Below the pieces are notes generated by a model. It ran no database searches, was not told where the DNA came from, and saw only the letters and a program-made list of their open reading frames with translations. The position numbers and the translations under genes were made by a program. From Adineta ricciae (taxonomy: Eukaryota; Rotifera; Eurotatoria; Adinetida; Adinetidae), in contig CAJNOJ010000168.1 of the NCBI GenBank assembly GCA_905250025.1, positions 7,512 through 71,511 on the forward strand: a stretch of 64,000 nucleotides of DNA, written 5' to 3'. Shown one piece after another: positions 5,053-17,700 of the stretch; the first letter of the stretch is position 1, and each line of letters starts with the position of its first letter.

Positions 5053-5593
5053 TTACAACAAAGAACATTTTTGTTTATCGCGAAATGGATTGTCTCTAGG
5101 TGATGAAAATCCCATGACAAGCGTGTCGGTTGTTTGATGATCTGTAATATAACGAACAAGATCTTTACATACAATCGAGACTTTTATTCGGTCACGTTTG
5201 GCTTCTTCGCGTAATTGTTCGCATAGACGATGTTGAGCAAGATATGTAGTTTGGGTATGATCTAAACACGCGAGAAAAAACGAAAGGTTCATCTGCTTCT
5301 TGGACGGGTGAATAAAATCATTCTGCTCTATGTAAAAGTCATCTATCGTGACATGAACAGAATTTGTCAACGTCAAACTTGATGAGTCTCCGTCATTTTA
5401 TGAATAATTTCTTCTTCGCACGATCAAGTCAGAAATCTAATTCATAATTCGCCACTTCGCAATAAGACTTACATTCAGGTGTATATGAACGCGGTGCGGA
5501 AAAGTTGTCTGATACACGTCGATTTGGAATATGATCATGACTCGAAGATAATTGAGTAAAAGCAGCAATGCTGTTAATATGTAGGACTGACAT
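5053..5593 (-). CDS. GNG: Heterotrimeric G-protein gamma subunit with N-terminal extension
   Basis: Membrane-anchored partner of G beta in GPCR signalling. Exons on the minus strand: 5593-5473 and 5387-5053 (121 + 335 nt, 151 aa). The C-terminal 60 residues carry the family signature: EQLREEAKRDRIKVS, then NPFRDKQK and a terminal CSLL. CSLL is a CaaX box, and the final leucine predicts geranylgeranylation. Known gamma subunits are about 70 aa, so roughly 80 extra N-terminal residues are present. The C-terminal exon is secure. The first exon is inferred from a perfect GTAAGT donor at 5472 and from frame closure. If translation instead starts at an internal Met near MNLSFF, a normal-sized subunit results. 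Confidence 0.85.
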
Positions 5594-6476
5594 TCGAACG
5601 ATTTCTCGGCTTTCAATGAATGATAATTAATCAAATTGTATACTTTGCTGGTTTTGACGCGGAATAGAGTTTTTGCTTTCAAGTCGAGAGTCGTAGTTGA
5701 TCATGTAAATTAACATAATTATCCAAGTTAACTTCGATGGGTTTTGTTATTCTTCAATAGACTACAAGTCTCAAATTGCTACGAGTTAGAAGGAGAACAG
5801 CGAATGAAGAAAGAAATCTCGAAAAGAAAAGATAGAGAAAGTTAGTTGTTTTTCCTTGTCATTTTCCGTTTTTCTTTTTGATGTGCCAATAGATTGACGC
5901 TTTTCTTTTCTTTCGTCGAAATTATCTTACAACAAACATGCTAATAGAATCAACGTTTGTCTTTAGCCGTGCATGAAACATATATTGAAGTTCTTGAGCA
6001 ATTCTATTAATGAACAGAATAACTTGATATTAGCATGAGGCATTCAATTCCATCTTCTTCACATTGTCAAGTTTAATTAACATCAATTTGTCTGTAATTC
6101 GTTAGTTTTCTTTTCGATTAAGACATGCAAGGGAAAGCAAATCCAAATTCGATTATGCATTGATCAACTTTTCCATAGGAATAATGCCGATATAGACAGA
6201 GGAGACGGGTCAGTGTTGTTTGATAGAAATTTTATACAGTTATTTATTTGTTTTAAATTCATTTAACACAATGAGCAACAAACAGAAAACAAACAAACAT
6301 AGAACGAGTGTGTGTATGAATGACTGACTAGAAAGGAGATTCGTCATGAAATAGGCTTTTTTTCTGTACATCTAATATCGATATATTTTAGAGAAGAAGA
6401 AAAGGATTGAGAGGATTGATAACAAGGGAAAATGATTTCGAATACTAAAAAAAGATGAATTTGGTACGAAAAGTTG
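5594..6476. other. Gene-free stretch between G gamma and SS18
   Basis: About 880 nt without a convincing coding exon on either strand. It likely holds the G-gamma promoter and the SS18 3' UTR, since both genes are on the minus strand. Confidence 0.35.
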
Positions 6477-8233
6477 TTAAGTTTGAGGTGGAGCTGGTTG
6501 GTATTGTCCTTGTTGATATGATGCGTATTGAGGTTGCATCATCATTCGTGGCTGATTTTGCCATTGGGGAGGTTGTGTTTGTTGCTGCATGTGATAATTC
6601 TGTTGGGGATGGTACATAGGAGGTTGTTGAGGCTGACCGCCGTAATTGTTATAAGCCATTTGTTGTGGAGGCGGTGGCTGCTGTTGTTGATTGGAAACTA
6701 GATTTTGTGTATTAGTGGCTTGAGAAGGCGAACTTGATGACGAAGGTTTAGGTGAGGTAGAAGATGGAATAATTGTTTGTTGTTGTTGTTGACCATTTAA
6801 TGGGGAATTGGGTTTAACAGTTTGATTCGGAGGAACAGACATTCCTGGATCTAAAGAGTGAGATTTTCATTGTAGTAGATAGAGCAAGATGTTTACAATT
6901 CTTCCTTACTTTGCTGTTGATGATACATGGAATAATGTGGCTGTTGTTGTTGCTGCTGAGGCATACCACCATTAGGATGGTGACCGTATCCATTTTGTTG
7001 CATTTGATATGCATGCTGCTGCTGCTGCGACGGTTGTTGTTGTTGAGGCATATATGCTTGTTGTCCTTGCATATATGAAGAAGGCGCTTGACCGGTCGAT
7101 GAATGATCCATACCAGCGCCGTTCAACATTCTGCCTTGTTGTGGCATCATGGGTTGAGCAGATAGATAAGGTCGTTGCTGCTGCTGCTGCTGTTGTTGTT
7201 GTGGCATCGAAGGTAGATGCGCGGATGATGGTTGTGGGGTTGGCGCCTTGTTCATAACTGAATTTTGTGGTGAAATTGACGATGTCATCGCACCCGAAGG
7301 AGAAGGTGATGGTGCTGAATGCGCTGGTGATCGTTGTTGTTGAAGAGAAGGAGCCAAAGACGTATTTGTCGAAGGAGCATTCGATGGTGGATAGAGACCA
7401 CCGCTAGTATTGGCATGCGGACTTTTGTTCAACGTTGACGAAGGAACATTCGACGGTACTGGACTATTCGTTTGGGTTCGATACACTAAAAAATAAAATA
7501 AATAATTTTTCATTCAGACTACGAAAATTTAATAAGAAGAATCATTGTGACGAAGGTGCCGAGTTCGTTTGTAAAATAAAAGACTCGGCATGTAATTTAA
7601 GTAATGTAAATCTAGCGCTTAACGTAATCAGTAATAGCCTCTCGTAAAACTCCATCGAATAGTCGATCTAACGAAATATATTACTTTGTTCTGAAGTTGA
7701 TGGTGGTACACCCATTTGATTTTGTTGCATCATATTATTTCCCTAAAATAGAACGTCATCTTTGTTTGGCTATCTCTCATTTAGTTTACCATCATCATCG
7801 GCTGTTGTTGCTGTGGTGTTTGCAAAAACGCTTCTGGTGGCTAAAACAAAAAAAACGTCGTACTTTAACATTGTCTCGAGCAATTTCAACGTACAGGCAG
7901 GTTATTTGGATGATGTGACTGTGTCATATCGAATTGTGTAAGATACGTTAGATTTCGATGCAATGTACGTTGGTATCTATATGAACGGATGATTTAGAAT
8001 GATAGTTGTCGAAATTGATGACATACTCAAGGCATTCTGTTGGTCTTCCTTTGGATTGTAAGTCAATGATCATTGATATTAGCTGAGAATTGTCATCAAG
8101 TAACTGAAAAAGAAAGGAAATGAATGATCGAGAAGAAAATCGACTAGTGAATATGAACCTTTTGAATTGTTGGTTTTTGTTGTTGCTGAGGCATTGGAGC
8201 CATTTGCTGTTGAGAATACATGTTTGAAATCAT
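6477..8233 (-). CDS. SS18: SS18 (SSXT/SYT) homologue, BAF chromatin-remodelling subunit
   Basis: Transcriptional co-activator subunit of SWI/SNF (BAF) complexes. Exons on the minus strand: 8233-8159, 8103-8027, 7976-7895, 7840-7790, 7742-7685, 7485-6910, 6850-6477; total 1293 nt, 430 aa, against about 418 in human. The SSXT N-terminal domain is clear across three small exons: TIQK, then LLDDNSQLISMIIDLQSKGR, then TECLEYQRTLHRNLTYL. The remaining two-thirds is low-complexity and rich in Gln, Pro and Ser with many CAG/CAA runs, matching the QPGY-like region of SS18. An alternative start is the ATG at 8221. A CTAATCTCAG acceptor-like motif lies about 10 nt before the first ATG. Confidence 0.93.
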
Positions 8234-11153: not shown

Positions 11154-14100
11154 ATGTACTCATCACTTGTCTACTATTTTATGTACCGTCGTCGAAATAA
11201 ATTCATCATTCTGTTAGTAATCATATTCTGCATCTTAGTCTTTTTCCATTCGACTTCTCAGCAGAATTCGCCAAGAACTAAGAAGAGTGTTAACTTGCCT
11301 CAGAAATTAATAAATGAAAGGAAGGTACGTGTCAATCGAGATACGTACACAACACCAGAACCATGTCATGGATGTCCAGGTGAAAATGGTCAAGGTGTAC
11401 AGTTAACGGTAATACCGGCAAAAGAAAGAATTGATTGATTGGAATGGTATATTTTAGGCAGAAGAATCAGTTAATTTAGATGCAGTGATGAAAAAAGAGT
11501 TTTTCAATTTACGTGCAAGTGATAAGATTTCACTATGGAGATCAATACCAGATACTCGAGATTCGATGTATGTTTCATAGAAGAATGTTGTCTGTTGAAT
11601 GAAAATCTTTTTCTCCGCAGGTGTAAATCCGTCGAATATCCACCAGATTTACCAACAGCGTCAGTAGTAATAGTGTTTAAGAATGAGCGATGGTCACCGG
11701 TACTTCGAACAGTTTATTCTGTCTTGAATCGATCGCCGAAGCACTTGCTCAAAGAAGTCATTCTAGTGGATGATCAATCAGATATTGGTAGGATGAGAAG
11801 AACAAAACCAGTCAATTTTCGACAACGAGATGATTTGTTTTCTAGAGGAGATGGGGCAACGCTTAGACGATTATTGTGAAGAACACTTTGGTGATCTAGT
11901 GCGGGTCTTACGAGCACCAACACGGCTTGGATTAATCAAAGCGAAGAACTATGGTGGAAGAAATGGTTAGTCAGAAATCTCGGAATCATAAAAGACAATG
12001 TATTTCCTTACTTTTAGCCACCGGCGATGTGATCGTATTTCTCGATGCACATTGTGAAGCGAATACTGGATGGTAAGTAGGTCGAGTCTCGCTGTTATAA
12101 ATACAATTCACAAGATCTAGGCTTGAACCATTAGTATATCGCATTAAACAAAAGCGGACAGCTATCTTATGTCCTATCATTGACTTGATCAATGCTTTTG
12201 CTTTATCGTACCGTTCGGGTCAGCCGAATTCGATTGGAGTCTTCACGTGGTCGCTTCATTTCAGTTGGTCGGGTATTTTTCCACGACTTATAAATACACG
12301 ACAATCAAGAATCGATCCTATCTCGTAGTTGGCGTTTGATTTTTGAAGTTGTTCATCCGCTTTGTTTTACTTCTTTATCTGGTGATTGGTTATTTTGATT
12401 TTTATAGGTTAGAGCCGCTTTTATTACGAATTAAGCAAAAACGTTCAGCTATTCTGTGTCCTGGTATCGATATGATTAGTGATAGTAACATGGGTTATGG
12501 TGTAAGTAGATATGCTGACTAAGAGATCATTACAGAAACTATCATTTCGGGATTTTTCAAGGGTACGGGTGACGGGAGTGTGGGCGGATTTTGGTGGTCG
12601 TTACATTTTAATTGGATTCCAGTTCCAGCACGAATACGAAATGCACAAAAATCGAGGATCGATCCTTACCCGTGCGTGATTCTTGCATTGCTTTGTTTCT
12701 AACACAGATGTTTGATCAGTAGCTTTATTTGGTTTTTTTTTACATTACAGATCTCCAACTATGGCTGGTGGTTTACTAGCAGCTCATCGAGAATATTTCT
12801 TCGAGATTGGTGGTTACGGTAAGTCATGACATCTGAGATGTGTACCAAATGTTAAGATATTCTCTTATTTTTATTTAGACGATGATATGGAAGTAAGACT
12901 TGTTAATTTCTTTTTCGTGCCTATTAGATGCGAAAAGTATACGATTGTAACGGGACATCTTTGTTTATTTTAGTGGGAAAATTGTCATACTTTGACAGAT
13001 TCATTGTGCATGCCTTGTAGGTTCGCGAAAGTGTCTTGCAGTTCAGCTAATGCATGAGTCTCTCACACAGTCCGTTTGGACAATGTTTTTTTTATTTCCG
13101 AAGCACAATTATAAAGCGTTCGATTGAAAAACTATTAACGAAATATTGAGTATGACCGCATGTTCACATTTGCTTCAGAAACCAGTTTTTTTTGCCTTAT
13201 TCATATGAAGATTTTCGGCATTTACATAACGAATAGTTTTTTCTGCATACAATCAATGTATTTTTAGGTGTGGGGTGGCGAAAACCTGGAAATTTCCTTT
13301 CGTGTTTGGATGTGTGGTGGCAGTTTGGAATTTGTACCATGTTCTCGCGTAGGTCATATATTTCGTCCAGGTCATCCGTATAATATGACTGGAGCGAAAG
13401 GTAATTTCATTCGTTTACTTCAAAAAGCAACCGATCATTCTGTTTCTCTTAAAGGTAAAGGTGATGTTCACGGTCGAAATTCGATGCGGCTCGCAGAAGT
13501 ATGGATGGATGACTATAAACGTTTTTACTATATGCACAGACACGATCTAAAGGTAGTTGGATATCATGAGTTGTTTAGTAGAAAAGTATGTCGAGTGTAT
13601 TTTGTTTTAAAATAGGGTAAAGATTATGGTGACGTAGAAGATCGTCGAGCAATAAGAAAACGTTTAAATTGTAAATCATTCAAATGGTACTTGGAGAATG
13701 TCTTTCCTGAAAAGTTCATCCTCGATGAAAATGTTCACGGTTTCGGAGAAGTAAATCAAACGAAAATAAATGAAATCATTGAATGAAACAATTTTCTTTT
13801 CAGCTCCGAAATCCTGCATCGAGTTTATGCTTAGATACTTTAGGTAAAGACGAAAAAGGTTCGTTACAATTAGCAATATTTTCTTGTCAAAATGGTGCCT
13901 CAGCCAATCAATATTTTTCTTTAACAAAAACGGATCAATTACGCCGTGAAGATACATGTGCACTGATATCTGGACGTGGGTCAGATGGTGCAGGTGTGAT
14001 CCTATCGCAATGTGATTATTCTGATCGAAATCAGAAATGGACACATGAAAAGGTAGCATTCATTGAAAAAACATATGACGCGCTCTATATAAACTCCGTG

Positions 14101-14252
14101 TTTTTCCTTAGAATGGAACAATTGTTCATCATCCAAGCGAACTGTGTTTAGATGTTGAAGGTCTTGCCAACAACGATCAAGTGAAACTACGAAAATGCCA
14201 ACCGAATAAACGATCACAACAGTGGCTGTTCGAACATTATGCAACAACTTAA
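11154..14252 (+). CDS. GALNT: Polypeptide N-acetylgalactosaminyltransferase (GALNT)
   Basis: Golgi type II membrane enzyme that starts mucin-type O-glycosylation by transferring GalNAc to Ser/Thr. Exons: 11154-11408, 11458-11567, 11621-11787, 11846-11965, 12018-12072, then either 12121-12324 or 12408-12501 plus 12562-12671, then 12751-12818, 12879-12892 (14 nt), 13268-13552, 13616-13750, 13804-14052, 14112-14252. Either choice gives 1803 nt, 600 aa. Visible parts are a short cytoplasmic tail, a TM anchor ([14 protein letters not shown]), the GT-A catalytic core with DxH (FLDAHCEAN), the Gal/GalNAc-T motif [17 protein letters not shown] with VGHIFR, and a C-terminal ricin-B lectin domain ([23 protein letters not shown]). 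The start follows a TTTCAG acceptor directly. The stop of the upstream hydrolase gene is only 120 nt away. Confidence 0.96.
12121..12324 (+). other. GALNT: Duplicated alternative exon of GALNT
   Basis: This 204-nt open exon encodes a full alternative to the segment encoded by 12408-12501 plus 12562-12671, also 204 nt. It starts with the same phase after the TGG tryptophan codon and ends with the same phase before the SPTMAGG exon. The two 67-residue products align with no gap and about 52% identity. Both begin LEPL, both contain RIKQKR, AILCP and WSLHF, and both end SRIDP. The copy has no intron where the other has one. Mutually exclusive splicing is the natural reading, but including both would also keep frame. 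Confidence 0.8.
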
Positions 14253-14791: not shown

Positions 14792-17700
14792 CTATAGATT
14801 TGCGTTTGCTTCCACCAATGGTAAGGAAGGTTTAATGGTGGCTTGGCGATGTTCCAGTTTGTCAACTTCGCTAAATTCACCTCGAACATCTTCACCAATA
14901 GAGTTGTTGATATTGTCCTGCGCCTCGCTAATGCTTGGTACCGCTGGTATTGAAGGTCTAAAATAATAACGAAGAAAAAAAATCGTTAATTCAAGCTTGC
15001 TAGAAACTAAGCATAGGAAGGAGATCGCAAATCCACACAGAGAGTATATCTACCAGGCTTCATTAAATGCTCGTATCATATACATGTCAATGAGTCTATT
15101 TAGTTTTTCATTTTATTGAAAAACATTCGGATATATCGATGAGAATAAACTTACTTGGTCGTTGTGTTAGTACTATTTTCTGGTAATGAATTTGATCGAC
15201 TTTTTGACGCTTCTTCCAAAGCGGTTGTGTTCAAAAACGTTGGTTGGGATAATACACTGAAACACAAGAACGAAATGAACGCTGTGTGAGAGAAAGATAT
15301 TTTTCGTACCTGTCATTTGGTGTGGTGTTAGAATCAGAAGTTTGGGAAGTTAGTGAACTAGATAATGGAGTTGTTGATATACTTGGGAACTTTGAAATCG
15401 GTATTCGGGGTGGAACGGGCGGTGCCGCACCTTGAGGTAATGGCGGTGGTACCGTAATTTGAGGAGGCGGTGGTGGCGCCGGACGGCCCTTCTAAGATAG
15501 AAGAAGTGAAATACTCATGAAGACAAAGTATATCACAGAAAGAAACATACCGCCGATGTTGTTCGTTTAATAGAATCTTTATTGCCTATCGGCAGTGTCT
15601 TATTATGCATAGCATTCATGTCCGGTGATGGTGGTGTAGCAGGGGATACGTCTGGACTAGTAAAATTTAAAGGTGTATTCGATGATGGAGATGGCATTGT
15701 TGATGATATCGAGCCTTGTCGACCAGAGAAGACGCCGAAGATCTTATAAAAACCACGCATTGTACGACCAGAAGTTGTACCCGGATTGTCCATGGTTAGA
15801 TTGAGGCCATGATCACCACGTGTAGTAGAACGTTGTTCAACTTGATGATTAATGCTTTCAACATCGGTTTCATTCGTTGCACACTGACCCATGCATAGTG
15901 CTTGGGAAAGTTTTCTTAGTTCTTCACGTTTCAATCGTTGTCTTTGTTCGGCTACTCGACCACGAAGGCTGGGCGATTCAATTGCTATATGTACTGAATT
16001 GAGCAATAAAGTAAGAAAATACTCTCGAAATGAACTATCACATTGATACATTCCACCGGGGGGCTGAATTGATTTGGTCATATCGTTACGATGCCAAATA
16101 CCAACCTACGAAAGTATAGCGATCATTCGTGATGACAACGAGTTAAGTTTTCATCTTACTTTATAATAAACTTGTTCGTTAATTCGATGTGGTTGGACAG
16201 TAATATATACTTGTGTGACTTTACCAGAAATGAAATCGGGTGAGAATTCCGCGTTGGGCTCTTGGAAAACAACGCAAACGAAGGCATTGCCAACAAGCCC
16301 TTTACGTTCAATACACTGTCCATTGGCTTTTGTCGATGGGATCATCGGAGCAACATTGAACATAATTTCGTGATTCTTATATTGAGCATAATAGGAATGT
16401 TCTCCGTGTAAATCATCTTTAGTATCCAGATCGCCTCGATACTTCGTAAACCCTTTCAAACGTACACACTCGGCTAGGATTTGTAGAAAATTCAATAAAT
16501 CGACAGATAAGAGGTCATTGCTGAAGATGTCGTATTCCATCGTTTGATCTGAACGTTGATAAATAAGTCCGATTTTACAGTTTTGCCTTTCGTCATTCAA
16601 TTTATCGAACGCATAAATCTTCTCATTTGCCTATTATTCAATTAAGAGGAAAAAACGCTATTTAATACAATCCTCGTTGACCACTCTTCTAACCTATACT
16701 TACTTTTGGATCGCCAATGGTTTTACACGTTTGAACTGTGGATAGATTAGCTTGATTGAACAAGACTTGCAGGATATTTTCTTCATTGGTACTATCAACC
16801 AATACAGAAACATGATCGTTACGACTCGCTGTGCTAAAATAAGAAAATTACCGTGAACGTTTTCGTTTTTCTGAAAGTAGTTTCCTGTTGTCAACAAGCA
16901 ACCAGTACATACCGAATAATTGCTCGTGCTTGGCAATGTACATCTGTGTCATCGAATGATTTTATATAAAAATATCTTAACGACGCAATAAATGGTCCTT
17001 CTTGTTCAAATTCTCCACAATAATTTGTATGAAACTAAACAAAAGCCAACCATCGTTCGCTTTCATTTCCACAGCATACAGATCTTCACTTACATATTCG
17101 AAGAAATACTCTCGGTAAATTTCTGCTACACATGTCTGTGTTTGTAATTCTAGTGTGAGCGAATGAGCTGAGTATGGTTCATTCGAACTGATCTCATAAC
17201 AGAACAACGACGTAGCAGATGAGACAGACGACGTCCGAGAATCTTCTTGTATAACTGAAGCTAACCGCTCGTTACTGACAGTTGAATTTGTTCGAGAGTG
17301 GTTCAATGCTGAATTGGATAATATCTATAAGTAAAAACACGTCAATTCTATCTATTTAGAAATACATCCATCAACTAAATAATCGAGGTCAGCTGTTATA
17401 TAGAAACAAACTTTTCTTACTCTCATCTGTTGAAGAATTCTTTTCAGAGACAACGCTGGTTGACTTTCACTTTCGGTTAATAGCATATTTTCGTACTTTC
17501 CATTGGACGAACTCAATTTCTATTTTTGTTTTGCATTGTTATATAGCATCATGTTATCTGTTTTCGGACATGACGTTATACAACGAAAACTCAGTGTATA
17601 GCATGACAAAACATTTCACTTACCATTGACGAAGGCAATTCGTTTTTCGCTCTCATCATATCATTGTGATGTAACGAGGACATACTATTGAAAGAATTAG

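Follow-up and report, generated by a model that had tools for sequence, protein, structure and literature searches.

A tandem exon duplication and candidate splicing switch in the catalytic domain of a GALNT gene

The window analysed here, 64,000 nucleotides (nt) of DNA (C168:7512-71511, in a genome of 130.5 Mb in 1033 contigs), carries at 11154-14252 on its plus strand a complete gene which its domains and motifs identify as a polypeptide N-acetylgalactosamine (GalNAc)-transferase, or GALNT, in which one segment of the catalytic domain is present twice in tandem, once as a single exon (A) and once as a unit of two exons (B). The two are a real tandem exon duplication, and both are under coding constraint in the copy pair compared. 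In our reading, to which we give a probability of about 0.68, A and B would be an old duplication now serving as alternative, and most likely mutually exclusive, versions of a segment of the substrate groove, B being the default and A needing a factor for its inclusion, with the two resulting enzymes differing in their preference for acceptor peptides.

A duplicated exon in a GALNT gene

The gene was modelled with A or B as alternatives, and either form gives a protein of 582 amino acids (aa) with a single terminal stop and GT..AG at every intron. The parts of the model are as follows, with splice-site percentiles given relative to 159 introns drawn from the genome's 19 other GALNT loci:

11154-11408, 11458-11567, 11621-11787, 11846-11965 and 12018-12072, plus strand: five common upstream exons, supported by the open spliced frame and Pfam matches; in the spliced model 11154-12072 encodes the membrane anchor, the stem and the N-terminal half of the GT-A domain, which includes DAH(CE)
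12073-12120, plus strand: intron before A, with a strong donor (95.6th percentile) and the weak A acceptor (2.5th)
12121-12324, plus strand: exon A, 204 nt, the alternative stretch between the DxH and SPTMAGG motifs, kept in the copy on C335
12325-12407, plus strand: A-B intron, 83 nt; the A donor is weak (0.6th percentile), the B acceptor strong (95th)
12408-12501, plus strand: exon B1, first half of the alternative version B
12502-12561, plus strand: phase 0 intron within B, at the same position only in C168, C335, C59 and C308
12562-12671, plus strand: exon B2, second half of the alternative version B
12672-12750, plus strand: intron after B, 79 nt, with a weak donor (0.6th percentile)
12751-12818, 12879-12892, 13268-13400, 13455-13552, 13616-13750, 13804-14052 and 14112-14252, plus strand: seven common downstream exons of the spliced model; by Pfam, 12751-14252 encodes the remaining half of the catalytic domain, followed by the ricin-type lectin domain

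Isoforms A and B both match PF00535 (glycosyltransferase family 2) and PF00652 (ricin-type lectin) above the Pfam cut-offs, and among the solved relatives matched by each, 15 of 16 are named as N-acetylgalactosaminyltransferases or GalNAc-transferase, the remaining one as ‘Glycosyl transferase’. By eye, a hydrophobic N-terminal stretch of the kind that anchors a type II membrane protein can be recognised in the model, along with the AGG and WGGEN motifs and the DxH metal motif, and the enzyme would belong to family GT27. The predicted activity is the transfer of GalNAc to serine or threonine, as the initial sugar of mucin-type chains.

The original prediction, made from the window alone, had proposed that exon A and unit B are gap-free duplicates, and the coordinates, lengths and phases it gave were all confirmed. 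Each version is 204 nt long and begins and ends in the same phase (the first base is a third codon position and the end leaves two bases), with all junctions GT..AG. The products align without a gap and are identical at 36 of 69 residues, the two split boundary codons counted, which bears out the proposed identity of about 52%. At the nucleotide level 113 of 204 positions agree, the differences falling 32, 22 and 37 on the three codon positions (68 of each). The likeness goes far beyond chance: exon A as a query recovered the B stretch with an expect value (E) of 2.6e-16 in a small set of GALNT loci, and in a genome-wide search it matched itself, the C335 copy (96%), other GALNTs and the B exons. 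An extra homologous exon was detected, at E up to 0.001, only in C168 and C335 among 21 GALNT-like loci.

Both versions fit the family. Isoform A scores 105.7 bits and isoform B 104.0 against the Pfam glycosyltransferase family 2 model, 38.6 and 41.4 against Glyco_transf_7C, and 130.9 and 137.5 against the best solved GALNT when the query includes the shared flanks. In alignment columns where 19 other rows are conserved to 75% or more (rows C62 and C44 excluded here and in the next count), A keeps the conserved residue in 11 of 12, as does the B of the window gene (B168). The commonest family residue is found at five columns in A and in neither B168 nor the B of the C59 copy (B59), at five columns in both Bs and not in A, and at two in B168 only; since A alone holds the commonest residue at five columns and the reverse is true of five others, mere decay of a B copy does not explain A.

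Four gene copies and purifying selection on exon A

The gene exists in four copies which form two pairs, C168/C335 and C59/C308. In unit B the members of a pair agree at 200 of 204 (C168/C335) and 195 of 204 nt (C59/C308), and 150-155 of 204 agree between pairs. Across the gene C335 is 94% identical to C168, and in the compared stretch it is collinear with the window, while C59 and C308 each share 443 of 574 aligned residues with the model. Neighbours of the window gene lie on both sides of the C59 copy at 36-73% identity, C59 being the member of the older pair examined for synteny. The minus-strand coding stretches at 5056-8229 and 15536-17324 of the window have counterparts beside the C59 copy, and mark the older duplicated block.

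Near copies differ by a synonymous divergence (dS) of 0.09-0.18, introns of the GALNT loci have a median length of 55 nt (n = 181, 5-95% range 47-69 nt), and the GC content is 36.7%. For Adineta ricciae the published figures are a homologue divergence (KS) of 0.135-0.14, a median intron of 55 and a GC content of 35.5-35.6% (PMC5916493, PMC7943196). The two-pair copy pattern, short introns, GC content and dS together fit a bdelloid rotifer, and A. ricciae best.

Between C168 and C335, exon A differs at nine of 204 positions without an indel, through six synonymous and three nonsynonymous steps that change two residues. This corresponds to dN 0.019 and dS 0.135, a dN/dS ratio of about 0.14, which compares with 0.19 in the upstream constant part and 0.03 in the downstream part. 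The nonsynonymous steps are few both by a binomial test on site counts (p 0.007) and by a Poisson test against the intron rate of 105/1138 (p 0.0003), and in unit B none of the four differences is nonsynonymous. Exon A is under purifying selection in this copy pair, and both units are under coding constraint. Disabling mutations in A in close relatives, which the original prediction named among the findings that would count against it, were looked for within this genome: C335, the sole other copy with A, has none, its exon containing no stop and the flanking GT and AG being retained in both copies, and C59 and C308 carry B only, with no relic of A found in either.

Splice sites and the choice between A and B

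Introns were called with our own spliced aligner, whose intron ends are unsure in poorly conserved parts, and the splice-site matrices were built from introns of 40-140 nt lying within model positions 85-540. The strong common upstream donor and the strong B acceptor make B the likely default, and the weak A sites beside that acceptor are in keeping with an alternative exon under regulation. After B2 the donor is as weak as that of A, its equivalent in C59 and C308 standing at the 6.9th percentile. Default splicing would then probably join the exon at 12018-12072 to B, and A, with weak sites at both ends, would need a factor that activates it or represses B. Either choice would yield the full-length 582-aa enzyme, and skipping both A and B brings a TGA stop at the junction; read-through past the A donor, by sequence, meets a stop immediately. 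An extra AG at 12113-12114 lies 6 nt before the A acceptor (7 nt before it in C335, locus L009), and in both copies its use would, by sequence, bring a stop no more than two codons from the junction. This AG may add another level of control, or may mark A as a weak exon.

Several results weigh against a mutually exclusive switch. The weak sites of A also fit an exon that is used rarely or never: the A donor is equalled or exceeded in score by 43% of the GT dinucleotides in the window and the A acceptor by 22% of the AG dinucleotides, and in C335 the A sites are again weak (acceptor 6th percentile, donor 1st). When matched to solved GALNTs, bare exon A also obtains a lower score than B does (44.3 vs 56.8 bits), and selection was measured on the single pair C168/C335. 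Nor did intron length, reading frame or RNA pairing provide a mechanism of exclusion. Steric exclusion of A-to-B joining was set aside, since the family's introns are mostly shorter than the 83-nt A-B intron; going by site strength alone, the strong B acceptor would favour such joining. The double inclusion of A and B is open and in frame at 651 aa, therefore decay cannot remove it, and we rejected frame-based decay as the safeguard; exons with a length divisible by three are not subject to it (PMC6071210). RNA pairing was scored for all six combinations of the four introns that surround A and B, against 300 simple shuffles per combination; the lowest p was 0.15, and hence there is no sign of docking or selector sites. 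The whole A/B region is less stably folded than 60 simple shuffles, and the two downstream introns share no word longer than 9 nt (p 0.17). A U12-type donor for A was considered and judged absent, by eye only, against the U12 consensus.

The open frame of the double inclusion raises another possibility, that A serves as an optional cassette, spliced in alongside B to give a 651-aa protein with the segment twice, or that both patterns occur. The lack of a stop, the length of the A-B intron compared with most here and the 95th-percentile B acceptor all speak for it. However, A keeps 11 of the 12 conserved columns and so has been maintained as a working GALNT segment, and repeating the segment midway through the catalytic domain would presumably disrupt folding, which makes the cassette improbable in our view.

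The splice sites of A themselves suggest a further alternative, in which A is a remnant, a duplicated exon that is hardly spliced now and has been kept through the recent common descent of its two copies. Sites at the 0.6th and 2.5th percentiles of 159 introns, matched by many random GT and AG in the window, are in keeping with this, as are the extra AG upstream of A in both copies and the absence of A from C59 and C308. The scarcity of nonsynonymous steps that separate the two copies (p 0.007 and 0.0003) argues against it, together with the lack of any indel or stop, the retention of GT and AG in both copies, and the family-conserved residues kept by A though it differs from B at 33 of 69 positions; we attach little probability to a remnant. 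A would be either a regulated exon or a poor one, and the selection result speaks for the regulated exon. What stands of the original prediction is the duplication, with both units coding and conserved in C335, and the presence of groove positions in the duplicated stretch; mutually exclusive splicing keeps the rank of candidate that it was given there. We infer the use of A, the exclusion between A and B with its mechanism, and the change of specificity.

Intron history and age of exon A

The intron within B occurs at the same position and phase in four of 21 GALNT loci (C168, C335, C59 and C308), in none of the other 17, and not in A. The original prediction had left open whether A lost this intron or never gained it; A does lack it, and as it is confined to four of 21 loci, A most likely never gained it. 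Other introns in the segment sit elsewhere, in C62 and C155 (phase 0, seven residues on) and in C61 (phase 1, five residues on), which implies that introns entered the segment more than once or moved. The intron at the upstream boundary of A and B (phase 2) is likewise found in the four copies only, and that at the downstream boundary in 16 of 21 loci.

In the protein tree, from which C62 was excluded (doubtful alignment with a stop) and in which the C44 row contains 54 residues only, A and B form one group (support 99/97), and the four Bs group apart from A (94/89, not starred). Among nucleotide sites uniform within pairs, 51 unite the two B lineages, 13 unite A with B168 and 13 unite A with B59, the difference between the last two having a 95% bootstrap range of -8 to 14. 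These results are suggestive of a separation of A and B before or about the time of the pair split, with the B intron gained before that split and A lost from C59/C308, and A probably predates the split of the B lineages.

An opposite order is that A is the younger, a copy of B made in this lineage once C59/C308 had split off, which then lost the intron and changed rapidly. This alternative bears on the age of A only, and is compatible with a working switch. It would account for C59 and C308 being without A or any trace of it, and a tree joining A to B168 is not rejected (p-AU 0.20), the program moreover warning of long branches around A. On the other side, A is equally near to B168 and B59 in the site counts, the four Bs form a clade, A is without the intron present in all four, and it has family-like residues where both Bs differ; we regard a younger A as unlikely, though far from negligible. 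The older duplication would allow a wider proposal, which we make tentatively and with somewhat less than even confidence: that the exon switch is older than the bdelloid tetraploidy, that one pair of copies kept it and the other became fixed for B, and that this represents a further independent recruitment of a GALNT to tandem-exon switching, one by which mucin-type glycosylation could be redirected without a new gene.

The duplicated segment and the acceptor-peptide groove

To place the exchange on a solved enzyme we aligned residues 1-63 of exon A with residues 233-295 of human GalNAc-T2, which are of equal length, so that residue n corresponds to T2 n+232 if the alignment is gapless. The residues named for the hydrophobic groove of T2 are eight, Val255, Phe361, His365, Leu270, Phe377, Phe280, Trp282 and Tyr284 (PMC4432651). 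Five of these eight positions fall inside the exchanged segment, in agreement with the proposal that it lies in the catalytic domain near the substrate groove. Three are equal in the two versions, Phe280 and Trp282 being F and W in both and Leu270 being S in both, and two differ, Val255 being L in A and M in B, and Tyr284 being G in A and P in B. The T2 loop 257-262 is highlighted as near the flexible loop (PMC6994419, which also gives the name of the DXH motif); at these positions the residues are NAFALS in A and SDSNMG in B. A has three acidic residues and B five, and each has eight basic ones. As two groove positions, the 257-262 loop and the acidic count differ between A and B, a changed peptide preference with catalysis retained is plausible: both enzymes would use the same donor sugar and the same catalysis, on different preferred peptides.

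Other features of the gene and its paralogues

The intron at 12893-13267 is 375 nt long, compared with 47 nt in C59 and C308, and a 14-nt micro-exon (12879-12892) lies directly 5' of it. We considered this intron as the site of another exon copy or of a repeat; a genome search matched only the intron itself and C335 (88%), and no homologous extra exon was reported there in the scan of GALNT loci. In three GALNT paralogues (L017, L018 and L019) the alignment stops at about residue 437-447 of the model; these may be without a lectin domain, or have a very different one.

Relation to known GALNT switches and significance

Tandem-exon switching in GALNTs is already known, and the published switches in the same enzyme family count in favour of reading A and B as a switch. 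In the Drosophila pgant5 A/B isoforms, splicing exchanges residues 398-457, comprising the flexible gating loop and a helix-turn-helix, and thereby alters peptide preference through amino-acid changes that the authors term modest (PMC12776162, a preprint). The candidate described here resembles pgant5 in that a stretch of the GALNT catalytic domain would be exchanged by alternative splicing; however, the pgant5 stretch corresponds to about residues 327-386 of GalNAc-T1 (taking S420 as GalNAc-T1 A349 and assuming no gap), whereas the present one corresponds to about T1 218-286 (218-279 from the match to 8v9q, the remainder by extension). In Drosophila pgant9 the choice between exons 8A and 8B changes substrate choice, with a tissue-specific isoform ratio (PMC6115407), but there the stretch of about 30 residues lies in the lectin domain and not in the catalytic groove. 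GALNT13, Pgant5 and gly-5 appear together in a list of tandem duplicated exon substitution events from vertebrates, arthropods and nematodes, a recurrence interpreted by its authors as convergence (PMC9741552); the passages of that paper drawn on here do not place the exons of GALNT13 and gly-5 relative to the present exchange. The same source describes PGM1/PGM5, in which one exon was lost after gene duplication and only one duplicate retains both, a situation similar to that of C168/C335, with both exons, and C59/C308, with B only. In the open-licence paper library searched we found no report of rotifer N-acetylgalactosaminyltransferase splicing or of mutually exclusive exons in bdelloids. 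The position of the exchange differs from those of pgant5 and pgant9, and is seemingly new.

GALNT families reach different targets largely via separate genes. If our reading is true, A and B amount to a natural domain swap, two enzymes identical except at 33 of 69 residues, for which the C59/C308 pair forms a built-in control without the switch. A probable rotifer case would then join the GALNT switches of vertebrates, flies and worms.
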